A model generated the notes under the pieces. It saw only the letters and a program-made list of their open reading frames with translations, had not been told where the DNA came from and did not search any database. Both the position numbers and the translations under genes were made by a program. Positions 45,568 through 64,000 of a stretch of DNA of 64,000 nt are shown in pieces; positions within the stretch are counted from its first letter, which is position 1; every line of letters begins with the position of its first letter. The DNA lies in the NCBI GenBank assembly GCA_902611815.1, contig CACMAZ010000003.1:18862-82861 (forward strand), read 5' to 3'. This DNA comes from an uncultured Pelagibacteraceae bacterium. GTDB lineage: Bacteria; Pseudomonadota; Alphaproteobacteria; Pelagibacterales; Pelagibacteraceae.

Positions 45568-46503
45568 ATGGCTGAAAAAATATTAGCAATACAGGGTAAC
45601 TCTTTTAAAAATCTCAACATTATCACAGACACAACATATCTTTTAGCTCTAGAAGCACAAAGAAGAAGTTATAAGATTTACTGGTATGAGACAAAAGATA
45701 TAAATTTTATAAATTCTAAATTGATTGCCGAGGTTTGTCATATTAAATTTTTAGAAAATAATAAAACTTACTTTAAAATTATATCAAAAAAGAAGTTTGA
45801 ATTAAAAAAATCAAAAGTTATATTTATAAGGCAAAATCCACCTTTCAATATGGATTATGTAACTTCTACATTATTTTTAGATACTATAAAAAATAGTGTA
45901 AAAATAGTTAATGACCCAACCTCTATCAGAAATATATCTGAAAAGTTATTTTCAATTAATTTTAAAAAACTTATGCCACCAACAATTTTCACTAAAAATT
46001 TAGATGAGATTAAAAAATTTATAAAAATTAACAAAAAAATTGTATTAAAGCCTATACATGGGTATGCAGGAAAAGACATAATTTATATTAACGGTTTAAA
46101 AAATGTAAAAAAAATTAGACAATATCTAAAAAAAATTGGTCATGTTATGGCCCAAAAATATTTACCAGGAATTAAATATGGTGATAAGAGAGTTTTTATA
46201 ATTAACGGTAAGGTTAAAGGTGCAATAAGCCGTGTGCCTTCCTCAAATTCAATTTTATCAAATTTATTCCAAGGGGGCAAAGCTATAAAAACTACTCTTA
46301 ACCATAAAGAGTTAAACGTTTCAAATCAAGTAGCTAAAGTCCTAAAAAAAAACGGAATATTTTTTGCAGGTATAGATCTAGTTTCTGGATATCTAATTGG
46401 TGATATAAATGTAACATCACCAACAGGGCTTCCTCAATTTAAAGAATTAACAGGAGTAAATCTTGCAAAAAATTATTGGGATGAGCTAGAAAAATTAAAA
46501 TAA
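45568..46503 (+). CDS. gshB: Glutathione synthetase
   Basis: [39 protein letters not shown]-grasp pattern, [24 protein letters not shown]. Confidence 0.92.
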
Positions 46504-48183
46504 ACCTTCTACCTGACCTTTTTTATTTAATTTAATTTTGTCTGCAGCAGGAATTTTCGGCAACCCTGGCATAGTCATAATTGATCCACATATAACAACA
46601 ATAAATTCTGCTCCAGAAGATAATCTTACGTCTCTAATTGGTATTTCATGATTTGTTGGCGCACCTTTTAATTTTGGATCAGTAGAAAAACTATATTGAG
46701 TTTTTGCTATACAAACTGGAAAATTTTTGAACCCATTATTTTCAAATATATTTAATTTTTGTTTAATCTCTTCAGTTGCTGTAATTTTATCAGCTCTATA
46801 TATTTCTTTTGCAATAATCTCGATTTTTTCCCATAAACTTTTACTATCATTATACAAGAATTTAAATTTTTGTTTTTTTGAATTATTACAAACTCGTACA
46901 ACTTTTTTTGCTAAATCAACTGTTCCTGCTCCACCTTCTGCCCAGTGTTTACAATTACTAACTTCGACATTTAAATTTTTACAAAAATTAATTATTGTCT
47001 TTATTTCTTTTTTAGTATCTAAAACAAAATGATTAATCGCAACTATTGGCTCTATGCCAAATTTTTTAATATTATTTATATGCCTGTCTAAATTTGATAA
47101 TCCTTCTTTTAAAGCATCAATATTCTCAATTTTTAAATTTTCTTTTTCCACACCACCATGCATTTTTAAAGCACGAACTGTGGCAACTATAACAACACAA
47201 CTTGGTTTTATATTTGCTTTTCTACATTTAATATCCAAAAATTTTTCAGCGCCAAGGTCAGCACCAAAACCTGCCTCCGTTACTACGTATTTAGATAACT
47301 TTAAAGCTGACTTTGTTGCAATTACTGAATTACATCCGTGAGCAATGTTAGCGAACGGTCCTCCATGAATTATAGCTGGGTTATGCTCTAGACTTTGAGT
47401 AACATTTGGCCTAATTGCTTCTTTCAGAAGGACTGTCATTGGACCTTGAGCATTTAGGTCTTTTGCATAGACTGGTTTATTATTTTTATCATAAGCAATT
47501 GTAATGTTTCCAATTCTTTTTTCTAAATCAGACAAATCATTAGATAAACAAAAAATTGCCATTACCTCAGATGCCACTGTAATATCAAAACCATCCTCTC
47601 TAGCAAAATCCTTTGCTACTCCTTTAGTATTTATATCTATAAATCTTAAAGCCCGATCGTTCATATCTACAACTCTTTTCCAAACAATTTTTTTTTCATC
47701 AATGTTAAGTTTATTTCCCCAATAAATATGATTATCGATTAAAGCTGACAGAAGGTTATGCGCTGATGTAATAGCATGAAAGTCACCAGTGAAGTGAAGA
47801 TTTATTTGTTCCATAGGAACTACCTGTGCATTACCACCTCCAGCCGCACCTCCTTTCATTCCGAAAGAAGGGCCAAGACTAGGCTCTCTCAAACAAACAA
47901 TAGATTTTTTTCCAATTTTATTTAATCCATCATTTAAACCAACAGATGTTGTAGTTTTACCTTCCCCAGCTGGGGTTGGCGTTATTGCTGTTACAAGAAT
48001 AAGATGACCATCTTTTTTATTTTTAAGTTTATCCAAGAATTCAAAATTTATTTTAGCTATGTGTCTTCCCATGGGACTAAAAGCTTTTGGGTTATCTGGA
48101 ACATTTATCTTTTTTAAAATTTTTGAGATGGGTTTTAGTTTACAACCTCTTGCAATCTCAATATCAGATTTAAATTTTTTCAT
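46495..48183 (-). CDS. fhs: Formate-tetrahydrofolate ligase
   Basis: [74 protein letters not shown]. Confidence 0.97.
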
Positions 48184-52558: not shown

Positions 52559-52717
52559 ATGACAAAAAAAAATGCTGAAAATGTTACAGAATTAATATTA
52601 GATGATTTATGTGAGGAATGTCAAAAAAGTGACGAAAGTGTTACCCACAATTTAATACTTACCGGGTTTAAGATTTGTAAATCTTGCAGAGTTTCTAAAA
52701 CAATATTTCCAATTTAA
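52559..52717 (+). CDS. 52-aa protein with two CxxC pairs (zinc-ribbon-like); not in the ORF track
   Basis: Read directly: MTKKNAENVTELILDDLCEECQKSDESVTHNLILTGFKICKSCRVSKTIFPI*; fills the gap between purE and the next gene; convergent 4-nt overlap with 52714..53259. Confidence 0.6.
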   Translation: MTKKNAENVTELILDDLCEECQKSDESVTHNLILTGFKICKSCRVSKTIFPI

Positions 52718-53259
52718 GTTACATTACTTATTGGCAAGGTATCCATTCTACTCATAACAAAAGACACTGATAATATAGCTAGTATTAAAAACGATAAAAA
52801 TATAATTCCAAAAGATTTAAAATTAGATTTTAATTGTAATACTTCCCTTGTTGAAATTATAAGAGATGCAAAAATCCATAGTTGAGTGAGAAATATAATT
52901 GGCATTACCATCGTGGGAGTAATAGCAAAAAATCTTAGTAAGCCGGGCGCATGAGCGAAACCTACCGCTATTAGTATTTTTTTAAATGGTACCTTAGTAT
53001 CTTTGTCTGGAAAAAGTTTTACTCCAATTACAAATATAAATATTGCCCAAACGAACCAAGTAAAAATAGCAGTAATCGCAGATAAACCGATCGATGTTTT
53101 ATAAAATGTATTTGCCGCAATAGCCCCAGCTACTCCATCTAAAACCATTACAAGTGCTGCAAAATATATTGCCGCCTCACCAAAACTCTTACTTTCTCTA
53201 TAAAGATTTTTATCAAGCTTGATAGATCTAAATACGATACTTAAAAATTGTGCAAACAT
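52714..53259 (-). CDS. Yip1-like multi-pass membrane protein
   Basis: Five hydrophobic segments; KDTKVPFKKILIAVGFAHAPGLLRFF. Confidence 0.65.
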   Translation of the reverse strand: MFAQFLSIVFRSIKLDKNLYRESKSFGEAAIYFAALVMVLDGVAGAIAANTFYKTSIGLSAITAIFTWFVWAIFIFVIGVKLFPDKDTKVPFKKILIAVGFAHAPGLLRFFAITPTMVMPIIFLTQLWIFASLIISTREVLQLKSNFKSFGIIFLSFLILAILSVSFVMSRMDTLPISNVT

Positions 53260-53386: not shown

Positions 53387-54799
53387 CTACTTCGCAACTT
53401 CCCTAGTATTTGGATTATAAGACTCTGTAAAAGGAATATCCACAACAACTGCATCAACAGGATTACTTCCTTTTTCACAATATTTTTTAGGTAAGTGAAC
53501 TTTAAATTTATCACCCACATTACCTTTGGGAAATCCATTTTTGTTAACTGTTCCATCAAATGGAACATAACCCATTGCGATATTTGTACCTTTTTCTGGA
53601 TGATACCAAGGTGATGTAACAAAACCGATCGGATTTTTTCCATCTTTTGATATTAACCAAAAATCTGGAGCATACTCTTCAATTGGTTTTCCACCTAGTT
53701 CCATACCAACTAATTGAAGTTTGTATGGTTTTTGTCCATTTAATAATTCTTTTTTCATATTTTCTAGCGCTTCTTTACCAATGTAATCTCCTTTTTTAGC
53801 CCATTCACCTTTTCCAGATAATGAAACTTGATAGCCTAAATTACATTGAAATGGATTATGTTCATTATCCATATCTTGACCCCAAGATAAAATTCCAGCT
53901 TGAATTCTTCTGTGATGCGCAGGAGCGATAACCATTAATTTATGTTTTTTACCTGCTTTTAAAACTGCATTCCACATATCTTCTGCGTAAAGTGTCGCGT
54001 TTCTTAAATATATTTCATAACCCGCTTCACCAGAAAAACCAGATTGAGAAATTACACAACTTCTTCCACCAACTTTCGCTTCAGCTAATCCATAATAAGG
54101 CATATTATCTAAATCAACTTGCTTACCAATTAAGTCGTTCATTAAAGCTTTTGATTTTGGACCTTGAATTTGCACAGGACATGCATCTATTTCATCTATC
54201 TCAACATTAAATCTTTTATCTGCATTTACTCCTTGAAGATATAAGCCTATATCACTGTCTGATAAACTAAACCAAAACTCATCTTGAGCAATTCTTAATA
54301 AAATTGGATCATTAAGCACTCCGCCTTTATAATTACAAAGAATTACATATCTAGCTCTCATCGGTGAAATTCTAGTTGCATCTCTTGTAATTACATAATC
54401 AGTAAATTTTTCTGCATCAGGACCTTTAACTCTAATTTGTCTCTCAACTGCAACATTCCACATTGTAACGTGATTTTTAATTGCTTTATACTCAACCATC
54501 GCTCCACCTTTTTCAGGTCTTACATATCCACGTGGGTGATAAATTCTGTTATAAACTGTTGCTCTCCAACATCCTGCTTTCATTGACAAGTGCCAGTATG
54601 GAGATTTTCTAACTCTTGTTGACATTAACAAATCTACTTTTGTTGGACCGCTTTGTCTTAAGTTATATGGAACGTGTCTGTCTGATTGATCAACTTTTGT
54701 CGTATGTGATACTTTAGAGTAATCTACTTTTTCAATAATTCTGCTTGGTGATAATTTTCCGTTGGACTTTTTTTTTGTTTTTTTTCTTTTTTTAGGCAT
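53387..54799 (-). CDS. GcvT-family aminomethyltransferase / DmdA-like methyltransferase
   Basis: WNVAVERQIRVKGPDAEKFTDYVITRD, VQIQGPKSKALM, SQSGFSGEAGYEIYLRN, GILSWGQDMDNEHNPFQC. Confidence 0.8.
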   Translation of the reverse strand: MPKKRKKTKKKSNGKLSPSRIIEKVDYSKVSHTTKVDQSDRHVPYNLRQSGPTKVDLLMSTRVRKSPYWHLSMKAGCWRATVYNRIYHPRGYVRPEKGGAMVEYKAIKNHVTMWNVAVERQIRVKGPDAEKFTDYVITRDATRISPMRARYVILCNYKGGVLNDPILLRIAQDEFWFSLSDSDIGLYLQGVNADKRFNVEIDEIDACPVQIQGPKSKALMNDLIGKQVDLDNMPYYGLAEAKVGGRSCVISQSGFSGEAGYEIYLRNATLYAEDMWNAVLKAGKKHKLMVIAPAHHRRIQAGILSWGQDMDNEHNPFQCNLGYQVSLSGKGEWAKKGDYIGKEALENMKKELLNGQKPYKLQLVGMELGGKPIEEYAPDFWLISKDGKNPIGFVTSPWYHPEKGTNIAMGYVPFDGTVNKNGFPKGNVGDKFKVHLPKKYCEKGSNPVDAVVVDIPFTESYNPNTREVAK

Positions 54800-55520
54800 A
54801 GTTATTTTCCTTTAGCCAGTTGTTGGTTTCCTTAAGCCCACCAAATGTGTAGATGTGAAAATATTTAGTATGCTCTTTTATTTTATCTACAAGTTCATTT
54901 GGGTCTTTTGGTTTTAATAAATCAATTGCCCTACTAAAATTGGATTTAATAAAATTTATAGAATTTTTTGCTCCTACAATATTTGCAAACTTAATTAAGC
55001 TTGATATTTTCATAGGTCCAGTAATTCCAACATGAACTGGGACAGACTGTTTAGAAATAAAATCAATAATTGGTTCTGACTGCATTAACCATTGAGTTAC
55101 AATGTAATCAGCGTAAGGCTTTTTATCAATCATTGCTTTTTCTAACACTTCGTCGGATATATCAGGACTCCCCTCTGGATGTCCAGCAATTCCTATCTTC
55201 ATTTTCTCAAAATAACCAGTCTCTAAAAGCTGGAAAGAACTATCGAATTTTCCCATGGGTTCTCTGCCGCCACCAATTACAAGGGCTTGCTTTACCCCGC
55301 CGTCTTTACACATTGTTACATATTCTTTTAGTTGTGCTTCATTAGCCATTGATCTTGCAGGAAAATGAGGGACAGGGTTGAAACCCTTTTTCACTAAGTT
55401 GACTGCTTGTTGAGCTGTCTCTTTAAAATCGCCACCAGGTAGCATTGTAATGTAGACGTCTTTTAAAGCTGGCAAGGTATCTAGATTTGTTTTTGGTCCA
55501 ATTTCTATAGAAAAATTCAT
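54792..55520 (-). CDS. Methylenetetrahydrofolate reductase-like protein (short)
   Basis: YITMLPGGDFKETAQQAVNLVKKGFNPVPHFPARSM, ALVIGGGREPMG, GIAGHPEGSPDI, ADYIVTQWLM. Confidence 0.8.
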   Translation of the reverse strand: MNFSIEIGPKTNLDTLPALKDVYITMLPGGDFKETAQQAVNLVKKGFNPVPHFPARSMANEAQLKEYVTMCKDGGVKQALVIGGGREPMGKFDSSFQLLETGYFEKMKIGIAGHPEGSPDISDEVLEKAMIDKKPYADYIVTQWLMQSEPIIDFISKQSVPVHVGITGPMKISSLIKFANIVGAKNSINFIKSNFSRAIDLLKPKDPNELVDKIKEHTKYFHIYTFGGLKETNNWLKENNYA

Positions 55521-62580: not shown

Positions 62581-64000
62581 GTGAAATCTAAATCTAAAGT
62601 AGTTGTTGTTGGTGGTGGCGTAGTAGGAGTTAGCGCACTATATCATTTAGCAAAAAAAGGTTGGTCGGATGTTGTTCTAGTCGAAAGAAAGGAACTTACT
62701 TCAGGATCAACTTGGCATGCAGCTGGACTATTACCTTTATTCAACATGAGCTATTCGGTTGGTCAATTACATAAATACGCAGTTAACTTGTACGGTAAGT
62801 TAGAGGAAGAGACAGGAAAAAATGTAGGCTTCAGTAGAGTATCAAATATTAGACTTGCAAACAATAAAGATAGAATGGATGAATATTTTCAGTATGCAGG
62901 TGTTGCACAAACAATTGGTGTTGATGTAAAATTTTTAACTCCAGATCAAGTAAAAGAAATTTGGCCACTATGTAATACATCTGATTTAGTTGGGGCCATT
63001 CAACATCCTGAAGATGGTTACATTCAACCAGCAGATTTAACGCAAGCTTTGGCTACAGGAGCAAGAAACAGGGGTGCAGAAATTTATAGAAACACAACAG
63101 TTGTAGGAATTAAACAAACTAAAAATGGTTGGGTTGTTGAAACAGATAAAGGATCAATAGAGTGCGAACATGTAATTTCTTGTTCAGGAAACTTTGCAAG
63201 ACAAACTGGTAAAATGGTTGGATTAGATATTCCTGTTATACCAGTTGAGCATCAATACATCGTTACAGAACCTCATCCAGAAATTCAAAAAAGAAAAAAA
63301 GAAGGTTTACCTGAAATGGGAGTTTTAAGAGATAGTGATAGCAGATGGTATATGAGAGAAGAAGCAGGAGGATTAATTCTAGGTCCATATGAAGATGGTG
63401 CTCCAGCATGCTATGTTAATGGACCATCTAAAGAGTCAGAGTATGAATTATTTCAAGAAGATTTAGACAGGCTAGCACCACATATAGAAGGCGCCATACA
63501 TAGAGTTCCAGCTTTTGGTGAAGTTGGAGTTAAGAAAGTTTATAATGGTGCAATTTGTTATACGCCTGATGGAAATCCAATTGTTGGACCAGCTTGGGGA
63601 TTAAAAAATTTTTGGATTAATGAGGGACACAGTTTTGGAATAACTGCAGCTGGAGGTGCAGGTTGGCAATTAGCTGAGTGGATTGTTGATGGAGAACCTA
63701 CAATTGATATGCTTGGTGTTGAACCAAGAAGATACGGTGACTATTGCTCAAAATCATATTTGATTAAAAAGAATGAAGAAGCTTATAGCCACGTATTTAT
63801 AAATCATTTTCCAGATGAGGAAAGACCTGCAGCAAGACCTCTAAGAACAGCTCCGTGTTACGACAGAATGAAAAATTTAGGTGCTGTGTTTGGTCAAAAA
63901 TTTGGGTGGGAAAGACCGAATTTTTTTGCAACAGATGGAATGGAACAAAAAGACGATTGGTCGTTTAGAAGATCTAAATGGTTTAGCGCTATAGAAAAAG
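62581..64000 (+). CDS. Dimethylglycine/sarcosine dehydrogenase-like FAD protein (GTG start, truncated at window end)
   Basis: Translation MKSKSKVVVVGGGVVGVSALYHLAKKGWSDVVLVERKELTSGSTWHAAGLLPLF...NEGHSFGITAAGGAGWQLAEWIVDGEP..., open to 64000. Confidence 0.88.
   Translation, partial: MKSKSKVVVVGGGVVGVSALYHLAKKGWSDVVLVERKELTSGSTWHAAGLLPLFNMSYSVGQLHKYAVNLYGKLEEETGKNVGFSRVSNIRLANNKDRMDEYFQYAGVAQTIGVDVKFLTPDQVKEIWPLCNTSDLVGAIQHPEDGYIQPADLTQALATGARNRGAEIYRNTTVVGIKQTKNGWVVETDKGSIECEHVISCSGNFARQTGKMVGLDIPVIPVEHQYIVTEPHPEIQKRKKEGLPEMGVLRDSDSRWYMREEAGGLILGPYEDGAPACYVNGPSKESEYELFQEDLDRLAPHIEGAIHRVPAFGEVGVKKVYNGAICYTPDGNPIVGPAWGLKNFWINEGHSFGITAAGGAGWQLAEWIVDGEPTIDMLGVEPRRYGDYCSKSYLIKKNEEAYSHVFINHFPDEERPAARPLRTAPCYDRMKNLGAVFGQKFGWERPNFFATDGMEQKDDWSFRRSKWFSAIEK

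Follow-up and report, generated by a model that had tools for sequence, protein, structure and literature searches.

The window, that is, the whole 64,000-nucleotide stretch of DNA analysed here, carries a gene of the GcvT/DmdA superfamily, AMT, that overlaps a gene for a short MetF-like protein. We propose that AMT is a direct, cobalamin-independent glycine betaine (GB):tetrahydrofolate (THF) methyltransferase, a reading to which we assign a probability of roughly 0.55 and in which GB is chosen from gene context only. The more general statement, that AMT uses THF to demethylate some methylated onium osmolyte and that the MetF-like protein oxidises the product, can be made with considerably more assurance. 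The more ambitious one we regard as evenly balanced: that a direct GB:THF methyltransferase family, independent of cobalamin and O2 and sister to the DmdA group, has spread horizontally with a reverse MetF among SAR11, other Proteobacteria and haloarchaeal megaplasmids.

In the proposed scheme, AMT would move one methyl group of GB to THF, giving dimethylglycine (DMG) and 5-methyl-THF with no need for cobalamin, oxygen or homocysteine, and the co-translated MetF-like protein, working in reverse, would convert 5-methyl-THF to 5,10-methylene-THF, to be carried on to CO2 by FolD, Fhs and formate dehydrogenase; dimethylglycine dehydrogenase (DMGDH) and sarcosine oxidase would take off the remaining two methyl groups. 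A redox-neutral methyl transfer of this kind would require an onium donor and have 5-methyl-THF as its product. As DMGDH and sarcosine oxidase yield methylene-THF unaided and need no MetF, the presence of a MetF partner would mark the transfer of a methyl rather than a methylene group, and, as DMGDH and Sox already belong to the pathway, the missing onium step would be that from GB to DMG. SAR11 bacteria are reported to lack MetE, MetH and MtgC (PMC12478193); 5-methyl-THF would therefore have no evident use but oxidation, and MetF no evident biosynthetic outlet, which fits a MetF running in reverse.

The genome of the window is that of a SAR11 bacterium (Pelagibacter; 0.97 Mb in 41 contigs, 78.6% complete). 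Both reading frames and their 8-nt overlap were recovered where the initial annotation had placed them (Table 1); the metF-like gene ends in ...AACTATGCCTAA and AMT starts with ATGCCTAAA. That annotation also described the genes as fused in an operon; they are co-oriented and overlapping, and there is no fusion. The Lys-rich N-terminus that had seemed atypical proved, in the alignment, to be a tail that is longer in one other SAR11 locus (L029) and missing from the alphaproteobacterial, gammaproteobacterial and haloarchaeal orthologues. A 181-aa protein that matches no Pfam family, possibly a membrane partner, is encoded at 52714-53259, and its gene lies 3' of AMT in 56 of 80 SAR11 loci.

Table 1. 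Features of the window bearing on the proposed pathway.
Feature	Position	Strand	Length	Remark
AMT, GcvT/DmdA superfamily, SAR11_1265 orthologue	53387..54799	-	470 aa	proposed GB:THF methyltransferase
Short MetF-like protein, S6MTHFR type, SAR11_1264 orthologue	54792..55520	-	242 aa	proposed 5-methyl-THF oxidising partner
Overlap ATGCCTAA, metF stop and AMT start	54792..54799	-	8 nt	
Lys-rich N-terminal tail of AMT	54755..54799	-	15 codons	SAR11-specific, length variable (alignment)
fhs, formate-THF ligase	46495..48183	-		would serve downstream C1-unit oxidation; beside the pair in other SAR11 lineages
DMGDH-type FAD oxidase gene, start only	62581..64000	+		truncated where contig C3 ends

The product of the truncated DMGDH-type gene has mitochondrial dimethylglycine dehydrogenase as its best PDB match (E=2.9e-113), and one end of contig C11 holds the C-terminal part of a DMGDH-type gene, followed by etfB. 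The gene in the window is probably the next step of the pathway, located outside the operon; its distance of 7 kb from the metF-AMT pair and its opposite strand are counted against GB as the substrate. Clustering with GB-module genes (GbdR, DMGDH, Sox) is a feature of the AMT family outside SAR11 and is weak in the window itself.

AMT scores 140.7 bits against GCV_T (cut-off 25.6), with a weak match to GCV_T_C, 241.6 bits against the DmdA model NF009133, below its curated cut-off of 410, and 134.1 bits against the GcvT model TIGR00528, below its cut-off of 235.85; the scores against LigM (31.2 bits, cut-off 580) and DesA (45.5 bits, cut-off 800) are both far below threshold. Maximum-likelihood analysis of 63 proteins placed AMT in its own clade of 26 members (support 97/91) from SAR11, Alpha- and Gammaproteobacteria and haloarchaea. 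Next to this clade is a larger group (87/78), which contains both the DmdA core clade (100/100) and additional DmdA-like proteins; the GcvTs fall outside both. The description of AMT as a DmdA-related methyltransferase other than GcvT thus agrees with the scores and with a phylogeny in which its clade is supported and is sister to the DmdA group. A DmdA orthologue was ruled out, the score being below the cut-off and the position outside the DmdA clade. In the alignment, the invariant AMT residues D164, Y151, E262 and Y264 correspond to D108, Y95, E204 and Y206 of DmdA, which are folate-site residues, while several neighbouring positions are clade-specific relative to DmdA (at 87-88 AMT has YH where DmdA has LL, at 258 E in place of Q, and at 112 T in place of Q); this combination is one of the reasons for favouring GB. 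AlphaFold2 models built with SAR11-only alignments were too poor to use, the mean pLDDT being 46 for AMT and 56 for MetF.

Two further clades are of separate interest. DmdA-like proteins of Roseobacter plasmids (L089, 7989-9128; L090, 7971-9113) form another uncharacterised clade within the DmdA group, with the cluster order Lrp-AMT-OsmC-enoyl-CoA hydratase-acyl-CoA synthetase. A distinct AMT-like clade, approximately 40-44% identical (L109, 8982-10022; L160, 7426-8637), is encoded beside an S6-type metF and a DMGO-like oxidase and is probably a related N-methyl demethylase.

The MetF-like protein gives 21.5 bits against the Pfam MTHFR family, a real match though below the cut-off of 24, and 23.5 bits against the canonical MetF model TIGR00676, whose cut-off of 293.7 is not reached. 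Its sole PDB match, 7xg9 (E=7e-34), is presumably S6MTHFR of Sphingobium lignivorans SYK-6, and a relationship to the LigM-coupled MTHFR is thereby supported. S6MTHFR oxidises the 5-methyl-THF that LigM produces (PMC12585457), and the closest solved relative of the MetF-like partner recognised earlier is thus a 5-methyl-THF-oxidising type of MTHFR; we infer that it, too, is a 5-methyl-THF oxidiser working in the reverse direction. No second MTHFR was found in its own 78.6% complete genome. Within residues 80-90 of the window protein, SAR11 and the operon at L163 have a Gly (IGGGREP) where S6MTHFR and some relatives have a conserved Asp (IAGDPNEP), the residue that is catalytic in E. coli MetF. 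At two other loci (L155, 7584-9113; L156, 7224-8753), a single 509-aa ORF, of the same length and start in both, lies upstream of AMT; that of L156 consists of a BetI/TetR-type regulator (TIGR03384, 138 bits) followed in one chain by an S6-type MetF domain and is possibly a choline/betaine-sensing regulator joined to a C1 enzyme. An ORF-calling artefact was considered and dropped, because both loci carry the fusion and the one in L156 scores as BetI plus MetF.

Within SAR11, AMT was found in 99 of 148 genomes of the family, and the order of the two genes and their overlap are conserved: in 78 of 80 loci the gene immediately upstream, on the same strand, is metF, AMT being near a contig end in the other two. 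The metF-AMT pair moves as a unit in this group, and the pairing seen in the window is not a matter of chance. In one lineage the pair faces fhs and an NAD-dependent formate dehydrogenase (NF005750; 670 bits against a cut-off of 329), and another lineage has a Rieske oxygenase and DMGDH-EtfBA-ETFQO beside it; at L029 its neighbours are fhs, a sarcosine oxidase operon and BhmT paired with DMGDH. Seventeen AMT-carrying SAR11 genomes, each at least 92% complete, have no PF02574/BhmT homologue, and all of them keep one to three DMGDH/SARDH-type genes. We count both this retention and the linkage to fhs and NAD-formate dehydrogenase in favour of GB; the presence of BhmT, a possible existing GB demethylase, in many other SAR11 is counted against it. 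Other recurrent neighbours are a DUF3726 protein, a 553-aa protein that matches no Pfam family and an M19 dipeptidase, encoded 3' of the pair in about 40 of the 80 loci (for example, L006, 6834-10073) and missing from the window, and ergothioneine-type EgtB-like (DinB/FGE domains) and EgtD-like (histidine methyltransferase) genes, adjacent to metF-AMT and divergent from it in approximately 22-25 of the 80 (for example, L008, 5025-7159).

The argument for GB also draws on gene context outside SAR11, where the neighbourhoods of 29 AMT loci from Proteobacteria were set against those of 13 DmdA-type controls (nine loci exceeding the DmdA cut-off and four falling just short of it). A DMGDH-type FAD/GcvT oxidase occurs in 14 of the 29 AMT loci (counted over the whole locus), metF in 13, soxA in 8, and GbdR and fhs in 5 each; DMGDH, sox, GbdR and metF are found in none of the 13 controls. 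DMSP-type genes (DddP-, DmdB-, DmdD- or DmpX-like) show the reverse pattern, with 6 of 13 DmdA-type loci against 1 of 29 AMT loci. For the genes that are missing from the controls, the Fisher p values, about 5e-4 and 3e-3, are optimistic and indicative, related loci being non-independent. Approximately 10 of the 29 loci lack an informative neighbour, which we count against GB, and neither BCCT nor OpuAC was found in any of the 29.

Several loci are telling in their arrangement. The operons soxA-soxG-DMGDH-metF-AMT (L163), AMT-soxBDAG (L164) and sox//AMT-metF-fhs-DMGDH (L249) follow the order of the pathway. Three related halophilic gammaproteobacteria (L106-L108) carry a DMGO-like oxidase, sdaA, GbdR, fhs and metF with AMT, the metF match being partial in L106 and the regulator of L107 exceeding the GbdR equivalog cut-off. 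Two genomes with the GbdR cluster (G138, G174) gave no GbcA match and no MTTB, which we also read in favour of GB. In a further genome, G729, DmdA adjoins a DmpX-type transporter and AMT sits in a soxAG-DMGDH-metF operon, a division of labour between the two proteins within one genome that again argues for GB.

The linkage extends to another domain. Orthologues on haloarchaeal megaplasmids, 48-57% identical to AMT, have DHFR, SHMT, S6-type metF, FolD, fhs and large FAD oxidoreductases as neighbours; the S6-type metF is near AMT in 9 of 11 loci and the large FAD oxidoreductases in 8 of 11, and the four of these that were scanned are DMGO-like. The co-occurrence of the S6-type metF and the FAD oxidoreductases with AMT is further reason for choosing GB, as is the BCCT transporter of one haloarchaeal locus, which has a GB-uptake model as its top match (522.6 bits, below the cut-off of 650). 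On three of the plasmids (L086, L112, L113), AMT is surrounded by one-carbon islands of folP, pabAB, FolD, fhs, SHMT and FDH.

The main rival is that AMT demethylates DMSP, as a second, non-DmdA DMSP:THF methyltransferase, or acts on a mixture of sulfonium and quaternary-ammonium osmolytes. It is unlikely. In its favour, the AMT clade is sister to the DmdA group, a DddP-like gene is nearby in 5 of 80 SAR11 loci, and in L029 and L085 a DmpX-like binding protein and a ProW-type permease are encoded directly upstream of the pair. We had considered this ABC transporter as one for GB and dropped that assignment, the best PDB match of the binding protein being DMSP-binding DmpX (7YLE, a DMSP complex), most of whose DMSP-pocket residues are kept (W35, T64, W84, W152, Y200, W202). 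Against DMSP stand the true DmdA found alongside AMT in G016 and G729, the scarcity of DMSP-type genes at non-SAR11 AMT loci where DMGDH is frequent, the GbdR/BetI-type regulators and Sox operons, which indicate GB, and the DMGO-type genes beside haloarchaeal AMT.

It is less probable still that AMT acts on another betaine or related compound (proline betaine, hydroxyproline betaine, carnitine, an ectoine-derived compound, or TMAO/TMA) and owes its GB-gene neighbours to products that enter a common pathway. Such substrates would suit L151, where a Rieske oxygenase and cis-3-hydroxyproline dehydratase-like enzymes are encoded near AMT, L105, with its M24/DoeA-like gene, and Haloarcula and several SAR11 lineages, in which Rieske oxygenases near AMT are GbcA-like with scores far below the cut-off; the neighbours common across phyla are nevertheless DMGDH, Sox and GbdR, which trace the route from GB through DMG and sarcosine to glycine. 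Removal of the methyl group of methylmercaptopropionate (MMPA), the second methyl of DMSP, was proposed on the strength of a likeness to DmdA and of equal abundance in metagenomes (PMC3160333), and we consider it improbable, since a methyl group on a neutral thioether should be a poor donor compared with one on an onium centre and since AMT is linked to GB genes even where the organism has no obvious pathway for DMSP. That AMT is the ordinary GcvT of glycine cleavage, as the shared fold family and the GCV_T and weak GCV_T_C matches might suggest, is contradicted by its TIGR00528 score, by a tree that groups it with DmdA and by the true GcvT on contig C24 of the same genome (334.7 bits against that model), and no gcvP, gcvH or gcvL adjoins AMT, as had been noted at the outset.

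The initial annotation put the pair forward as a candidate undescribed demethylation route, and in this it must be corrected. Sun et al. (2011) reported SAR11_1265 beside metF and close to DmdA, and offered the speculation that its role is to demethylate MMPA, taking off the second DMSP methyl (PMC3160333); the adjacent pair had thus been named and its function guessed. The module logic was not new either, since experiments have already addressed LigM-S6MTHFR, two enzymes that form a module of this kind. For the methyl donor, which had been left open, gene context favours GB over DMSP, and GB agrees with the oxidation of 14C-methyl GB to CO2 by HTCC1062 (PMC3160333). In a sulfur-limitation study of the same strain, SAR11_1264 and SAR11_1265 both changed strongly and fell in parallel (PMC5069961), which fits a single transcript. 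In open-licence literature, we found no tested function for SAR11_1265 or SAR11_1264 and no paper tying the AMT family to GB demethylation.

SAR11 are among the most abundant ocean bacteria, and GB is a major marine nitrogen osmolyte. The first demethylation of GB in SAR11 rests on a putative BhmT, which would tie the use of GB to the demand for methionine. If AMT is a GB:THF methyltransferase, many of the most abundant ocean bacteria would possess a GB demethylation route beside GbcAB, BhmT and Mtg; such a THF-linked route would explain how the methyl groups of GB are burned for energy and why the downstream enzymes are retained in BhmT-less SAR11. AMT would also become usable as a marker with which to follow GB turnover in ocean data, the GcvT/DmdA/LigM demethylase superfamily would gain a new substrate class, an old core SAR11 gene would become directly testable, and a one-carbon island on haloarchaeal plasmids would be suggested.

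Among characterised proteins, the closest solved relative of AMT is DmdA of P. ubique (PDB 3tfh/3tfi/3tfj; E=5e-45), a DMSP:THF methyltransferase. AMT shares with it the invariant folate-side D, Y, E and Y and an expected product of 5-methyl-THF, and differs from it in its separate clade, its score below the cut-off, its clade-specific residues and its gene neighbours. Judged by sequence, the pair resembles LigM and S6MTHFR of SYK-6 in combining a putative GcvT-family THF demethylase with an MTHFR related to a 5-methyl-THF oxidiser, although AMT is only distantly related to LigM, its proposed substrate is non-aromatic and the SAR11 MetF is much shorter than S6MTHFR (242 versus 288 aa). SAR11_1265/SAR11_1264 of HTCC1062 is the same adjacent pair with identical anatomy, and only the proposed substrate differs, GB here and MMPA there (PMC3160333). 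GbcAB, BhmT and the cobalamin-dependent MtgB/MtgC/MtgD belong to unrelated protein families and share with AMT the proposed reaction from GB to DMG, for which AMT, unlike them, would need no O2, homocysteine or cobalamin (PMC12478193).
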